Source: Candidatus Cloacimonadota bacterium
GTDB taxonomy: Bacteria > Cloacimonadota > Cloacimonadia > Cloacimonadales > JAQVBK01
Assembly: GCA_028690365.1 (NCBI GenBank)
Contig: JAQVBK010000002.1
Coordinates: 1-41,769 of the forward strand
DNA: 41,769 bases
Direction: 5' to 3'
Shown here: positions 1 to 14,206 of the stretch, piece by piece
Numbering within the stretch: position 1 is the first letter of the stretch
How the letters are laid out: every line of letters starts with the position of its first letter
The notes under the pieces: generated by a model
The model's database searches: none
What the model was told of the DNA's origin: nothing
What the model saw: the letters and a program-made list of their open reading frames with translations, nothing else
Made by a program: the position numbers and the translations under genes

Positions 1-613
1 GAACTGTTTCTTCAGAACCAAGTACATAATCGCAGTAAGAATGTACCTCGGTAATGTTTTCTATTGTCATCATATTGCAGGCATCAAAAATTACCATATC
101 CGGTCTGTAGTTCATCTCAGAGAAGGCTCTTCTCAAATCACCATTAGCAACAGATATAGAGGAATTAGATTCAACATCCGAACAAATCCATCTTTGGTCG
201 TTATTCTCTTTGTACCAGCTGTTGCCGTGAGACCAGATTATTAGAGCTTTCTTCGATGAAGGGTAATTTGAAAACCCCCAGTTGGCAAAGTTTTTTAGTG
301 TTATCCAACTACCACTGTCAATTTCACCAATATCTGAAATGAGATGTGAAGAAATTGTCTCAGGATTATCATCAGAACTTATTTTATACCTTCTGGCAGT
401 AGATATTGGCTGAGTTTCAGAATAATCAACCTGTACTATTACATTAAGATTATCATCAATTTCTGCTGCTTCCATTTCATTGATATCTTTAACTGCATTT
501 AAACACAATCCATTATCTGCAGCCATATAAACAAGAATAGTCCAGTTTTCTCCGTTAAGTAACAACGGTAAAAATAATGAAATCAATATAATGACTATCT
601 TTGTTCGTAACAT
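1..613 (-). CDS. Clostripain-like (peptidase family C11) secreted cysteine protease, N-terminal part, truncated by window edge
   Basis: Manual translation from ATG (complement of 611..613): MLRTKIVIILISLFLPLLLNGENWTILVYMAADNGL...KKALIIWSHGNSW...PDMVIFDACNMMTIEN...; signal peptide plus the SHG and DACNM catalytic His/Cys motifs of C11. Open to position 1, so absent from the ORF track. Confidence 0.85.
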   Translation of the reverse strand, partial: MLRTKIVIILISLFLPLLLNGENWTILVYMAADNGLCLNAVKDINEMEAAEIDDNLNVIVQVDYSETQPISTARRYKISSDDNPETISSHLISDIGEIDSGSWITLKNFANWGFSNYPSSKKALIIWSHGNSWYKENNDQRWICSDVESNSSISVANGDLRRAFSEMNYRPDMVIFDACNMMTIENITEVHSYCDYVLGSEETV

Positions 614-654
614 AGCTGCTCCACTGGAAAGAAGGTTGGTAATCCAACCTTCTG

Positions 655-1727
655 TTAATAAACGTTTTCCTGATCGATTCCTTTCAGAACTCTGACTGCG
701 CCCTGGGTCAAAGCTTCCATTTCATTTTCACCCGGATAAACATAAATCGGTGCAATGTAAGCAACGGATTCTTTTATGTAATCAACAACATATTTTCCGT
801 AGGCCAATCCACCGGTCAGGAAAATTGCATCAACTTTACCTTTTAGAACTGAAGCACAAGCACCTATTTCTTTGCAGACCTGATAAAGCATTGCATCAAA
901 ATATTTTTTATATTTTTCGTTTCCTTCCATAATCTTTTCCTGAATTTCCTGTCCATTATCAGTGCCAAGATAAGCAATCAGTCCGGCTTTTTTTGAAAGA
1001 AGATCTGTGAGTTCTTTTTTTGTAAATTTTCCAGAATACGCCAGATCAATCAAATCACCAATCGGTAAGGCACCAGCTCTCTGTGGAGAAAAAGGTCCCA
1101 TTCCTAAAAGTGCGTTATTTACATCAACCATAAGTCCGTTTTTTATTGCTGCAACTGAAATACCACCGCCCATATGAACAGCAATCATATTAGATTTAGA
1201 AAAATCTCTTTTTAGTTCATCAGCGACTTTTCTGGCTGTGTATCTAATATTAAGGGCGTGAAGCAGAGATTTCCTTTCGATTTGAGGAATTCCTGAAATT
1301 CTTGCAATATCGTCAAACTCGTCAACAGTAACAGGATCGACGATATAAGCAGGAATTTTGAACTGTTTGGAAATGGAGTCTGCAATAAATGCTCCCAGAT
1401 TGGAAGCGTGTATTCTTCCCCAGATAGAAGGGTCTTTAAGGTCTTTCAGCATTTTCTCGTTAACGTTAAAAGTGCCTCCTTTTACTGGATGCACTAATCC
1501 ACCCCTACCTACAACCGCTTCCAGAGTTGATGGATCGACTCCGTTTTCTTTCATTGCTTCCAGAACAAGGTTTTTTCGAAATTCATACTGTTCAATAATT
1601 CCACCAAATTTCTCTAATTCTTCCGGATCATGCCTGAGCGTTTTTACAAAGACCGAATTTGGTCATCAAAGACGGCAATTTTTGTGGATGTAGACCCCGG
1701 ATTAATGGATAAGACTCTGTATTTCAT
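655..1727 (-). pseudogene. buk: Butyrate kinase (acetokinase family), interrupted by an apparent -1 frameshift near 1656..1662
   Basis: Residues downstream (VGRGGLVHPVKGGTFNV..., HMGGGISVAAIKNG...) are butyrate-kinase-like. True start is ATG at 1727..1725 after GGAGG, giving MKYRVLSINPGSTSTKIAVFDDQ, which then goes out of frame; the other frame resumes with SVFVKTLRHDPEELEKFGGIIEQYEFRKNLVLEAMKENGVD. Confidence 0.85.
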
Positions 1728-2455: not shown

Positions 2456-3226
2456 CTATCTATCAATTCTACTGAATCTTGCGTCAGAAGCATCACGTAG
2501 TTTTTGCTGCAATTCTTCAGCTGAAAGATTAGGGTAAATCACCCCTTCTTTGGCAAATGAGATTCTGCCGGTCTCTTCTGAAACAATTATTACAAAGGCA
2601 TCAGTCTGTTCGGTTAACCCTATTCCTGCGAGATGTCTGGTGCCAAACTGATGAATATACTCAACGTTATTAGACAATGGCAAAACTACTTTAACGGCAT
2701 GAATACGTCCCTTTCTTATGATAACTGCTCCATCATGAAGAGCTGTTGCAGTATTAAAAATCATCAGTAACAATTTATGAGAAAGTGCTGCATCAATTGT
2801 TTCTCCGTTATTTATAAATTCATCCAATCCATTGTTTTTTTCAAATACAATCAAAGCTCCTCTTTTGAGAAATGATAAAGCTGATACTGAATGATAAATA
2901 GTTTGGAAAAAGTACTCTTTTTCGGTTTTGAATATTTCCTTTATTCCACTACCCTGTCCAAGTTTTGCCAGAGTATTTCTAATCTCGGTCTGAAACAACA
3001 CAATAAAAAGAACTAGCCAAAAGTCTTTGATTGACCTAAAGACAGAGCTCACCATCTTCAGATTTGTGAAAGTTGCGAAGATATATAGAAAAATTGTCAG
3101 ACTTATTCCAAGAAGAATAGGCAGACCACCTGCTTTTTTAATAATTAGCTGAATGATAAAATAAATGAGGACAGACATTATTATCACATCTAATATGTCT
3201 GTAACATGGGGAAGTAAGAAGCTCAT
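2456..3226 (-). CDS. cdaA: Membrane diadenylate cyclase (CdaA/DacA type, DisA_N domain)
   Basis: N-terminal hydrophobic helices, FQTEIRNTLAKLG, ATALHDGAVII (DGA motif), GTRHLAGIGLTEQTDAFVIIVSEETGRIS; overlaps folP by 4 nt. Confidence 0.9.
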   Translation of the reverse strand: MSFLLPHVTDILDVIIMSVLIYFIIQLIIKKAGGLPILLGISLTIFLYIFATFTNLKMVSSVFRSIKDFWLVLFIVLFQTEIRNTLAKLGQGSGIKEIFKTEKEYFFQTIYHSVSALSFLKRGALIVFEKNNGLDEFINNGETIDAALSHKLLLMIFNTATALHDGAVIIRKGRIHAVKVVLPLSNNVEYIHQFGTRHLAGIGLTEQTDAFVIIVSEETGRISFAKEGVIYPNLSAEELQQKLRDASDARFSRIDR

Positions 3227-10162: not shown

Positions 10163-10510
10163 ATGATAAAAATACCATTACCGGGAAGTCCGGTCAGAGG
10201 CTCACATACGGGGAAACCTGTTATGGCATTGTTCGATTTATTGTGCAGAAGATGGGCAATGGGAATAATTTGGAACTTAGGTGAGAGACCTTTCAATTTC
10301 AGGGAGCTACAAAGTAAGTGTGAGACAATATCGCCTACAATTCTCAATACCAGATTGAAAGAATTGAAAATGGCAGGTTTGGTACAAAATAGCTCAGAAG
10401 GATATGAACTGACTCCAAATGGTGTAGAATTGCTTCAGTTATTGAAACCGTTTAAAAAATATGCCCACGATTGGGCAGAATACATAAAAAAGGAGCAAGG
10501 AAATGAGTAA
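10163..10510 (+). CDS. HxlR-family winged-helix transcriptional regulator
   Basis: MALFDLLCRRWAMGIIWNLGERPFNFRELQSKCETISPTILNTRLKELKMAGLVQ...YELTPNGVELLQLL. Start refined from 10115 to ATG at 10163 after AAGGAG (10151..10156). Confidence 0.9.
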   Translation: MIKIPLPGSPVRGSHTGKPVMALFDLLCRRWAMGIIWNLGERPFNFRELQSKCETISPTILNTRLKELKMAGLVQNSSEGYELTPNGVELLQLLKPFKKYAHDWAEYIKKEQGNE

Positions 10511-10721
10511 AAAATACTTTGAAAAAGAGAATGGAAATTGGGTCAGAGATGACCTGAATGGAAAACAGAAAGAGTTTTGTATGTGTTGGGATTGCAGCAA
10601 ATTTAAACCGGAACTTGAAAATAAGGGCTGCAGTATAATTGCAGAAGTTTTAAATCTGGCTGCACAGAAAGAAATAGTTTTACCTGTATGGGAATGTAAT
10701 AACTTCTCTGCTAAGAAATAA
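10503..10721 (+). CDS. Small cysteine-rich conserved hypothetical protein (CxCxxC plus two further Cys)
   Basis: KEFCMCWDCSKFKPELENKGCSIIAEVLNLAAQKEIVLPVWECNNF; ATG overlaps the hxlR-like 3' end (10503..10510), preceded by AAGGA. Confidence 0.8.
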   Translation: MSKKYFEKENGNWVRDDLNGKQKEFCMCWDCSKFKPELENKGCSIIAEVLNLAAQKEIVLPVWECNNFSAKK

Positions 10722-11560: not shown

Positions 11561-11603
11561 AAAGAAAATGAGGTAAGAGTTAAACTCTTACCTCATATTT
11601 TCA
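11561..11603. terminator. Bidirectional terminator between convergent cutC and the selenoprotein candidate
   Basis: Long palindrome ATGAGGTAAGAGTT-A-AACTCTTACCTCAT (11568..11596), flanked by A-rich on the left and T-rich on the right. Confidence 0.75.
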
Positions 11604-11617
11604 TCTAAATGCAATTG

Positions 11618-14185
11618 TTATTTCAGCAATACCATTTTCTTGGTTGAAGTATATTTTCCGGTTTGCATACTGAACAGATATATGCCGCTTGATACTTTGT
11701 TATCATTTGAATCAGTACCATTCCATTCAATAGTGTATTCGTTTGCTTCTTTAAATTCATCGACCAGAGTTGTAACTTTTTGTCCTCTGAGGTTATAAAC
11801 TTCAATTTTTACGTGTCCGTTTTCTTTCATTCTGTAACTGATTTTTGTCTTAGGGTTAAACGGATTTGGATAGTTTCCTACCAGTTCAGTAGCAGCAGGT
11901 GTTGGGTTGTTGTTTGTAGTAGAAGTAGGAACTTCAATTTCTACAACATTAGAAGGAATCGATTCATAATCACCTTCATAGAGGGCTGTTACCCAGTAAT
12001 TATATATTCCTGCAGGCAGATTGGTATCCAGAAAGCTGTAAGTAGTAGATTCAACAGTTTGAATTGGTTCTACCTGATCATCTCTGTAAATGTTGAATCC
12101 GATAAGGCTTCGATTATTTCTTTGAATATCAAGTCTGTTCTTTGCAGTCTGATTGAATTTAGTAACAGAAATTTGCTGATAGTCGTTGATTTTGCGATGA
12201 TCTTTGCAAATCAGTGGGATTGCTTCTGCCAGACTATTTCTGGAAGCGGAAGCTGTGGCAGAAATGCACCAGTTATAGGTTAAAGCAGCATTGAGAGTCG
12301 TTAGGGTTGACCACGAACCGCCTAGATTTATCAGGTTTCCAAAACCTTCTACATTTGGTCCTGCATCAGTTCCGGCGGGATGACCTCCCTGTGTATTGGA
12401 ACGATAACCAATCCACAGTTCTTGGCTGGCATCAATTAAAACAGGAGTTTCTAAAGAAACAGTATTCCATTCACCCAGAGCTATATTGGTGACTAATTGA
12501 TCTACCACCATGGTTCCGGCATTGTAAGCTGCACCAGCTGTGCCTCCGGTCCAAACTCTGATTGAATATTCACATTGTTCGTAAGCAGGGACGAATGATA
12601 CTTCATTCAGATAAAGTCCACTAACGCCAGCTAATTCTTCGGATGTGAATCTTGCAGCTACATCAAAGTCTACAGCACTATTTGTTCCGATGCTGTTATC
12701 AGAAAATTCTCCACACCACTGGAGTGTGCCGTTTTGTCCGGCAGGTTCTTCCCAGTTCAGGAGTACATTGTTGTTCTGAAGCTCAGCAGTTAAATTTGTG
12801 GGCGGATTGTTTGCCCCACCGATAACTAAAGCAAAATCAAGTGTGGTAGTTTCATCTGTTGTAATTACTACATTATTAGCAGTTTGAGTTGCATATCCGG
12901 CAGCCATACATGTTACGGTATATGTCCCTGAAGAAACATTCGGAATGGAATATATACCTGAAGCATCTGATGTTCCGGTTAGGCTACCAATTGTAATAGT
13001 TGCATCCTGAATTGGGTCATTTGTGTCAGATGAAGTGATAGTGCCGGTCAATGTTCCATAACTGGGTGCTCCACCTACATAAGTAAATATTGCTGAGAAA
13101 TTAGATACTTGATGACCACCATCTCCGTAACTGTCAACAAGATAGAATATCCATGAACCTGCCATATCACTGCCAACAACATCATCGATAATTAGATTGA
13201 GTTGAGTTGCTCCCGTGGAACTAGCTGAATAAATCTCGTAATCCTGTCCGGTTGGAGTTTGAACCCAGAAACTACCCTCGCTAGCATAATCAACACTATT
13301 CCAGGTGCACTGGACGTTTATAGAAACTACTACACCGGGCTCAGATACTTCAACTTCAGTCCAGCCTAAATCTGTATATGAATTTTCGTAAGGATTTGTG
13401 TTGTTAGGATATGCCTGTTGAAGTGGGCTATTGGGAGCTGTGTAAGTAACTTCAGCAGTGTTTGGGTCAAGTACAACAACATTGAAAGAATGATCACAGC
13501 TTAATTCACCTCCGACTGCGAGCAAGGTGATTGTACTTGTGCCCATTGTTTGTCCTGCCAGTAGAGTCAATGTATTACCTGTGATTGTTGCATCAACTAT
13601 TGCAGGATCCGAGTTATCTTCAACAGTAACTGTAATTGGTTCATTATCAGGATGAGCAAAAACATCTGTTAAATCAACTGTAGTTTGTTCATTATAATCC
13701 AAAGTGATGGTATTGATTGGGTTTACTACACCCATACTATTGAAAGAATCCAGAGCTGCCGGGATGATAGCTTGCGAATTAGCATAAATATTATCGGCAT
13801 ACATAAGAACATTGTATGCTCCAATTACAGCAAAGAAAGGTACATAACCATTACCAAAATCACCATAATATCCATTAACCTGAGAACCGTATGGCAAAGA
13901 ATAATTTGTCCAGTTGTAAGCACAAATAAGATAAATCTCATCGTGATTGGCAGTATTATTCCACCAAGTATTTAAAAGCGGCGCCGCCGCTGCACATCCA
14001 TCTCAGCCTGCAGTTCCCCAAAAAATGTAAACTACTTTACCAGCTGCGGTTAACTCGTGAATCGAATGAGCTTCTCCGCTATTATCTGTCCAGGAATAAT
14101 CTTGAGATATTACCTCTCCGACTTCCCATTGAGCAAATAGCGAAAAAGCAGCTAAAAGCATGATTAATAAAAACAACTTTCTCAT
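11618..14185 (-). CDS. Probable selenocysteine-containing secreted protein: signal peptide, thioredoxin-like domain with UxxC, Ig/CUB-like modules, CarboxypepD_reg-like module, C-terminal FlgD/Por-type sorting module
   Basis: The two track ORFs (14003..14185 and 11618..13897) share a frame. Joined translation: MRKLFLLIMLLAAFSLFAQWEV...GKVVYIFWGTAG-[UGA 14005..14003]-DGCAAAAPLLNTWWNN...DEIYLICAYNW...YVPFFAVIGAYN...; C-term YPNPFNPKTKISYRMKENGHVKIEVYNLRGQKVTTLV...SSGIYLFSMQTGKYTSTKKMVLLK. 856 codons with a single internal UGA at the first position of a CxxC-like motif. Confidence 0.75.
13978..13990 (-). promoter_or_regulatory. Candidate bacterial SECIS hairpin
   Basis: Minus-strand RNA UGA-GAUGGAUGUGCA-GCGGC-GGC-GCCGC: 5-bp all-GC stem, loop starting with G at nt 18 after UGA, in an AT-rich gene. 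Confidence 0.65.
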
Positions 14186-14206
14186 TTTTCCTCCTTTTTA
14201 TCAATA

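Follow-up and report, generated by a model that had tools for sequence, protein, structure and literature searches.

The window analysed here, a 41,769-nucleotide stretch of DNA, carries a gene in which an in-frame UGA almost certainly encodes selenocysteine (Sec). Taken as a whole, the evidence is best explained by a Sec-containing thiol oxidoreductase that is very probably exported through the T9SS and displayed on the cell surface or secreted. The window gene is one member of a single large group rather than an isolated oddity.

The window (GC content 35.5%) is contig C271 of G000, the genome of an uncultured member of the Cloacimonadota, which comprises 3.6 Mb in 449 contigs. As set out in the preliminary description, two minus-strand open reading frames share a frame and are separated by a single UGA at 14005..14003; the joined frame runs from the ATG at 14185 to the stop at 11618. 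This read-through frame is 855 residues long, contains no other in-frame UGA than that at residue 61, and is preceded by a strong Shine-Dalgarno sequence (AAGGAGG). The UGA takes the first position of a UxxC motif (GTAG-U-DGC-AAAAPLL) within a domain of ~130 residues that lies behind the signal peptide and also includes the segment NGYVPFFAVIG. The features of the locus are as follows.

11618..14185, minus strand: predicted selenoprotein gene, 855 aa with UGA 61 as Sec (sequence and family comparison).
14190..14196, minus strand: Shine-Dalgarno sequence AAGGAGG (sequence reading).
14126..14185, minus strand: predicted signal peptide, ~aa 1-20 (MRKLFLLIMLLAAFSLFAQW), assigned by eye; the model has a helix at 2-14.
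13736..14125, minus strand: predicted TlpA/ResA-like thioredoxin-fold domain, ~aa 21-150, with U61, C64 and the invariant P116 (model, alignment and profiles).
14003..14005, minus strand: in-frame UGA, probable Sec codon 61 (sequence and family comparison).
13977..13991, minus strand: SECIS-like hairpin AGCGGC-GGC-GCCGCT, whose apical loop follows after 17 nt from the UGA.
12827..13054, minus strand: carboxypeptidase-regulatory-like domain, aa 378-453 (PF13620, 58.4 bits).
11630..11872, minus strand: T9SS type A C-terminal sorting domain, aa 772-852 (PF18962, TIGR04183).
11568..11596: terminator-like palindrome of 13 bp in the interval between the selenoprotein gene and the convergent CutC gene (consensus match only).

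UGA is otherwise a normal stop codon in this window, as had been proposed from the initial reading: it ends three further long open reading frames (at 3223, 29726 and 30606), in each of which the next stop lies 9-12 codons further on. These three genes speak against the idea that this lineage has reassigned UGA genome-wide to a different amino acid, a reading in favour of which we found nothing and which is hardly credible, the sole UCA-anticodon tRNA among the loci scanned being tRNA-Sec and the context of the UGA being typical of Sec. The same three genes could be taken to suggest that UGA 61 is likewise a true stop, or a site of low-level read-through, and that the two open reading frames represent a gene that has decayed or been split, for whose read-through product there is no proteomic evidence here. 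The homologues strongly contradict this account, which we regard as very improbable. UGA is retained in all family members read save two, one of which has Cys; neither TAA nor TAG occurs at this column among the copies read, in dozens of homologues. Coding conservation upstream of the UGA is strong, dN is lower than dS to either side of the codon in the near homologue pairs tested, synonymous sites beyond it are frozen, and the genome holds Sec machinery. A pseudogene and a plain stop were both rejected given the UGA-only column and the purifying selection on either side. Since the same UGA recurs in the same column in dozens of independent genomes, sequencing error and chance were also excluded. 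The earlier proposals that UGA 61 is a Sec codon and that global reassignment is unlikely are thus both upheld, the former by the conserved UGA, the Cys homologue and complete Sec machinery.

A query with the N-terminal domain gave single-TGA matches in 24 of the 99 genomes of the order, along with one extra paralogue without a stop, and a profile search of 125 Cloacimonadota genomes brought up 37 single-TGA copies, spread over 32 of them. Delongbacteria contributed matches in 10 of 13 genomes, with ~35 single-TGA matches, several of them in tandem. U at the first UxxC position was confirmed for the copies read; the weak matches from Delongbacteria were only partly read. The tandem arrays in this phylum hold two to four UGA paralogues each (L168 on G125:C74; L169 and L170 in G126, whose array contigs are C355 and C334; L171 on G136:C50; L172 on G127:C51). 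When 84,980 species were scanned, the family was found in Cloacimonadota and Delongbacteria only, barring one record titled Armatimonadetes, the contig of which belongs to the Cloacimonadota set; because the scan was pattern-based, the actual range may be wider. A phage origin was rejected, there being no match among phage records or viral contigs. The Sec/Cys pairing sought across the UGA was found in L173, a protein from Delongbacteria with a T9SS tail in which the motif reads CVPC and TGT stands in place of the UGA; it is the sole Cys homologue read. The other exception, L071 (2384-4400 on G097:C160), has SPSS in place of UxxC, with the Ala-Ala-Ala run written GCA GCT GCA; it stands beside a UxxC copy in the same genome and may be a non-catalytic derivative.

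The machinery for Sec insertion, a search for which had been suggested at the outset, is complete in the G000 genome. SelA scored 538.6 bits, SelB 326.3 bits and tRNA-Sec, with anticodon UCA, 58.5 bits versus a gathering score of 47. SelD scored 248.6 bits and is cut by the end of its contig (L077 on G000:C432, minus strand, 3..686). The selD gene has an in-frame UGA of its own (AAGUAAKLGP), at the position that Sec occupies in many SelD proteins, and folds a hairpin just past it (z -2.48). Across the order, 21 of the 24 carriers of the UGA family had a tRNA-Sec match, versus 27 of the 75 non-carriers (Fisher p ~1e-5, a value that ignores the relatedness of the genomes), and the 42 genomes of family f10 gave a match to neither the UGA family nor tRNA-Sec. 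Of the three carriers without a tRNA-Sec match, G093 is 61% complete, and G085 is 67% complete with SelB present. The third, G049 (92% complete), gave no SelB or tRNA-Sec match, though its UGA gene and hairpin are kept. As tRNA-Sec adjoins SelB in many relatives (e.g. G061:C58), one missing stretch could explain this genome. An unusual Cloacimonetes-type tRNA-Sec is on record (PMC5330540).

Immediately past the UGA, codons +5 to +8 nearly always read xCG GCG GCG CCG across 38 loci (xCG in 35/38, GCG in 36/38, GCG in 38/38 and CCG in 35/38, respectively). Elsewhere in the same genes, 83 of the 1350 Ala codons are GCG and 141 of the 897 Pro codons are CCG. Pairwise synonymous agreement at these four codons was 0.93, 0.95, 1.00 and 0.85, versus 0.28-0.34 expected, and no other codons from -18 to +28 had a comparable synonymous run. 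These codons write the family hairpin CGGC-GGC-GCCG, which is often extended further; its GGC loop begins after 17 nt from the UGA. The published bSECIS model specifies a loop of 3-9 nt with G in the first two loop positions, a spacing of 16-37 nt and an MFE of -7.5 kcal/mol or lower (PMC13188914); the window hairpin falls within these bounds (loop GGC, spacing 17 nt, -9.3 kcal/mol). When compared with shuffles and synonymous controls its MFE was not unusual for its composition (z -0.35), and so the case for the hairpin was built on conservation, without using energy. Covariation among 38 sequences exceeded nearly all shuffles by most measures, the shuffles being blind to relatedness. In 49 sequences the stem contained 19 double-changed cells; these include, at pair 17-27, five A-U and one U-A that replace C-G and, at pair 19-25, one A-U that replaces G-C. 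The numbers of paired cells and double changes in this set were reached by 0 of 2000 shuffles, again blind to relatedness; one stem pair is broken in two or three homologues. The hairpin is absent from both L173 (CxxC) and L071 (SPSS), having been lost along with the UGA.

The N-terminal domain is confidently predicted to adopt a TlpA/ResA-like thioredoxin fold. AlphaFold2, run on an alignment of 28 members, returned a model with a mean pLDDT of 91.2 in which U61 and C64 start a helix (62-77). The top Foldseek matches to this model are oxidoreductases of the TlpA/ResA type (3kcm and 4nmu; E ~2e-7, 12-19% identity). Weak agreement comes from sequence profiles: 3hcz was matched at E 1e-5, and the NCBIfam ResA model by 17 of the 28 members (best E 2.9e-6). 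The sequence by itself remains below the curated family cut-off (Redoxin, 13.1 bits of 26.6). U61, C64 and P116 are invariant in the 28 members, P116 corresponding in position only to the site of the cis-Pro in thioredoxins. Thiol oxidoreductase activity is likely. An alternative is that Sec serves as the peroxidatic residue of a redoxin/AhpC-like surface peroxidase rather than in a disulfide oxidoreductase, which would accord with weak hits to the Pfam families Redoxin and AhpC-TSA and with the peroxiredoxins found among the Foldseek matches. We consider this improbable, as UxxC is the feature that does not vary, structures of the TlpA/ResA type head the matches, and position -3 relative to U differs among members (T, G or E), so that the peroxiredoxin motif PxxxTxxU is not kept; an assignment by this motif was rejected.

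At the other end of the protein, the C-terminal sorting module noted in the preliminary description proved to be a Por_Secre_tail/T9SS type A domain, with 37 bits to TIGR04183 (cut-off 23) and 35.9 bits to PF18962 (cut-off 27). Of the domain layout proposed there, the signal peptide and sorting tail stood, and the Ig/CUB-like middle was refined to the PF13620 domain and a putative proprotein-convertase P-like domain, the latter by analogy with a homologue (L058) that scores just below the cut-off. The family as a whole has a constant head with variable, beta-rich modules behind it, including carboxypeptidase-regulatory, P-domain-like, Cleaved_Adhesin, fn3 and MAM-like modules and PKD with beta-helix. 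Most family members end in a T9SS tail. A dockerin-like end takes its place in two proteins that keep the UGA (L060:8770-9993 on G044:C32 and L061:7076-8263 on G019:C62).

The T9SS translocon protein SprA was matched in 91 of the 99 genomes, in 90 of which, G000 included, the score exceeded the cut-off. Together with the signal peptide and the type A tail, this supports the initial suggestion of an exported or surface-located Sec redox protein, and export to the surface or outside of the cell is highly likely. The selenoprotein could instead stay in the periplasm or at the inner face of the outer membrane, beside DsbD and TlpA, with the tail having a structural role. Such a location would fit the additional match of the tail to FlgD_ig, the two dockerin-ended homologues, and the DsbD and TlpA neighbours, which are periplasmic or membrane-bound. 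It is nevertheless unlikely, given that the TIGR04183 score exceeds its cut-off, that SprA is found in 91 of 99 genomes with G000 among them, and that the adhesin-like modular middles are typical of surface proteins.

The window gene, predicted to encode an exported protein, has no obvious operon; genes for an HxlR-like regulator and CutC are convergent to it and an NlpC/P60 gene is divergent. Between the regulator and CutC lies an open reading frame for a 72-residue Cys-rich product (FCMCWDCSKFKPELENKGCSIIAEV; 10503..10721, plus strand) with no Pfam match. In ~10 other genomes the selenoprotein gene lies no more than 5 genes, on the same strand, from those for DsbD, a CxxC lipoprotein, TlpA, DUF6029 and a small T9SS protein that bears two paired Cys. 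Conserved clusters of DsbD, CxxC lipoprotein, TlpA, DUF6029 and the small T9SS protein (L065:58-5605; L056:5307-10831; L153 on G000:C444) are widespread in Cloacimonadota, and in many cases the selenoprotein gene is their neighbour. That of G000 is cut at both contig ends, and the selenoprotein gene is absent from its visible part. As DUF6029 occurs in 87 of 99 genomes, the cluster is commoner than the selenoprotein gene. The tie between the two is no more than suggestive, and an electron relay from DsbD/TlpA to the selenoprotein is conceivable at somewhat below even odds. The small Cys-pair protein (CNDxGxCYMPN) lies upstream of many homologues. A conjectured kinship with the DsbD N-terminal domain is not put forward, hhalign having aligned a 13-residue motif only, with 10.7% probability. 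In L063, a gene for a 798-residue product beginning MKKISIIFIFFLIFSIQLFSAQRFVVGEVLSATWCGYCPTA precedes the selenoprotein gene by 8 bp and is apparently co-transcribed with it; this large, exported product has an N-terminal CxxC thioredoxin-like motif of its own.

We propose the following mechanism. SelB bound to the hairpin past the UGA would bring Sec-tRNA-Sec to the ribosome so that UGA 61 is read as selenocysteine, a step for which the comparative evidence is strong. The general Sec translocon would most likely carry the protein over the inner membrane and the T9SS over the outer membrane, to be displayed or released outside. There, the Sec61-x-x-Cys64 site may alternate between its selenolate/thiol form and a selenenylsulfide, and in doing so reduce or reshuffle disulfide bonds in proteins that are secreted or surface-bound. 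Judging from gene order only, in lineages where the cluster of DsbD, CxxC lipoprotein, TlpA and DUF6029 lies nearby, it probably gives reducing power or shares substrates. Electrons would then come from the DsbD/TlpA side, and no electron route to the cell surface is known; alternatively to their crossing the outer membrane, the protein might act as an isomerase or arrive reduced.

The family occurs widely in two phyla that for the most part remain uncultured. Because gene callers split such genes at the UGA, selenoprotein families of this kind go unseen in the annotation of MAGs. The occurrence at times of three or four tandem copies implies a heavy selenium outlay on exported redox chemistry, which raises the question of why costly Sec is placed on the cell surface and what its substrate is. 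The hairpin, in which synonymous sites are frozen and stem changes compensate one another, also offers ready material for studying SECIS recognition by SelB of other phyla.

A 2022 review counts 87 selenoprotein families or subfamilies (PMC9312934) and a 2026 review has a longer table, in which UxxC redoxin- and TlpA-like selenoproteins are included (PMC13188914). TlpA-like, redoxin and GOS_C UxxC selenoproteins appear in these two sources, and none is described like the window family. The NCBIfam selenoprotein models (June 2026) matched neither the window protein nor any of the 28 members. The open-licence literature searched yielded no T9SS selenoprotein and, for selenoproteins with T9SS or Cloacimonadota, nothing relevant except the Cloacimonetes-type tRNA-Sec. 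Exported selenoproteins have been predicted before, e.g. secreted trypsin-like and MucD-like proteases (PMC2398784) and a selenobacteriocin and TonB-dependent receptor (PMC13188914), so that exported proteins with Sec are not new in themselves; those proteins have other folds and other export routes, and by description are not T9SS cargo. GOS_C (PMC2398784; NF045500) is likewise a predicted bacterial selenoprotein with a thioredoxin-like fold and UxxC, but no member of the window family matches NF045500, and no T9SS fusion is described for GOS_C in the text consulted. With TlpA/ResA-like oxidoreductases and the listed UxxC selenoproteins the window family shares a thioredoxin fold, an active site at the start of a helix and export, and with the listed redoxin/TlpA-like selenoproteins (PMC13188914) the UxxC itself. 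It differs from TlpA/ResA-like oxidoreductases in having 12-19% identity to the nearest solved structures and in that its domain forms the head of a large protein built of several modules and ending in a sorting tail. Judged by the open-licence literature, the T9SS sorting, modular fusion, two-phylum spread and tandem arrays appear to be new. We give an even chance to the broader proposal of a hitherto undescribed family of selenoproteins exported as T9SS cargo, with a constant UxxC thioredoxin head and interchangeable surface modules, tandem-amplified in Delongbacteria and fed by DsbD-TlpA-DUF6029 in some lineages, that would constitute an extracellular selenium redox system of anaerobes. Like known T9SS type A cargo, the window family combines a signal peptide, a modular surface protein and a YPNPF...K C-terminal sorting domain with a genomic SprA; it is set apart from that cargo by its Sec codon and by its occurrence in Cloacimonadota and Delongbacteria.
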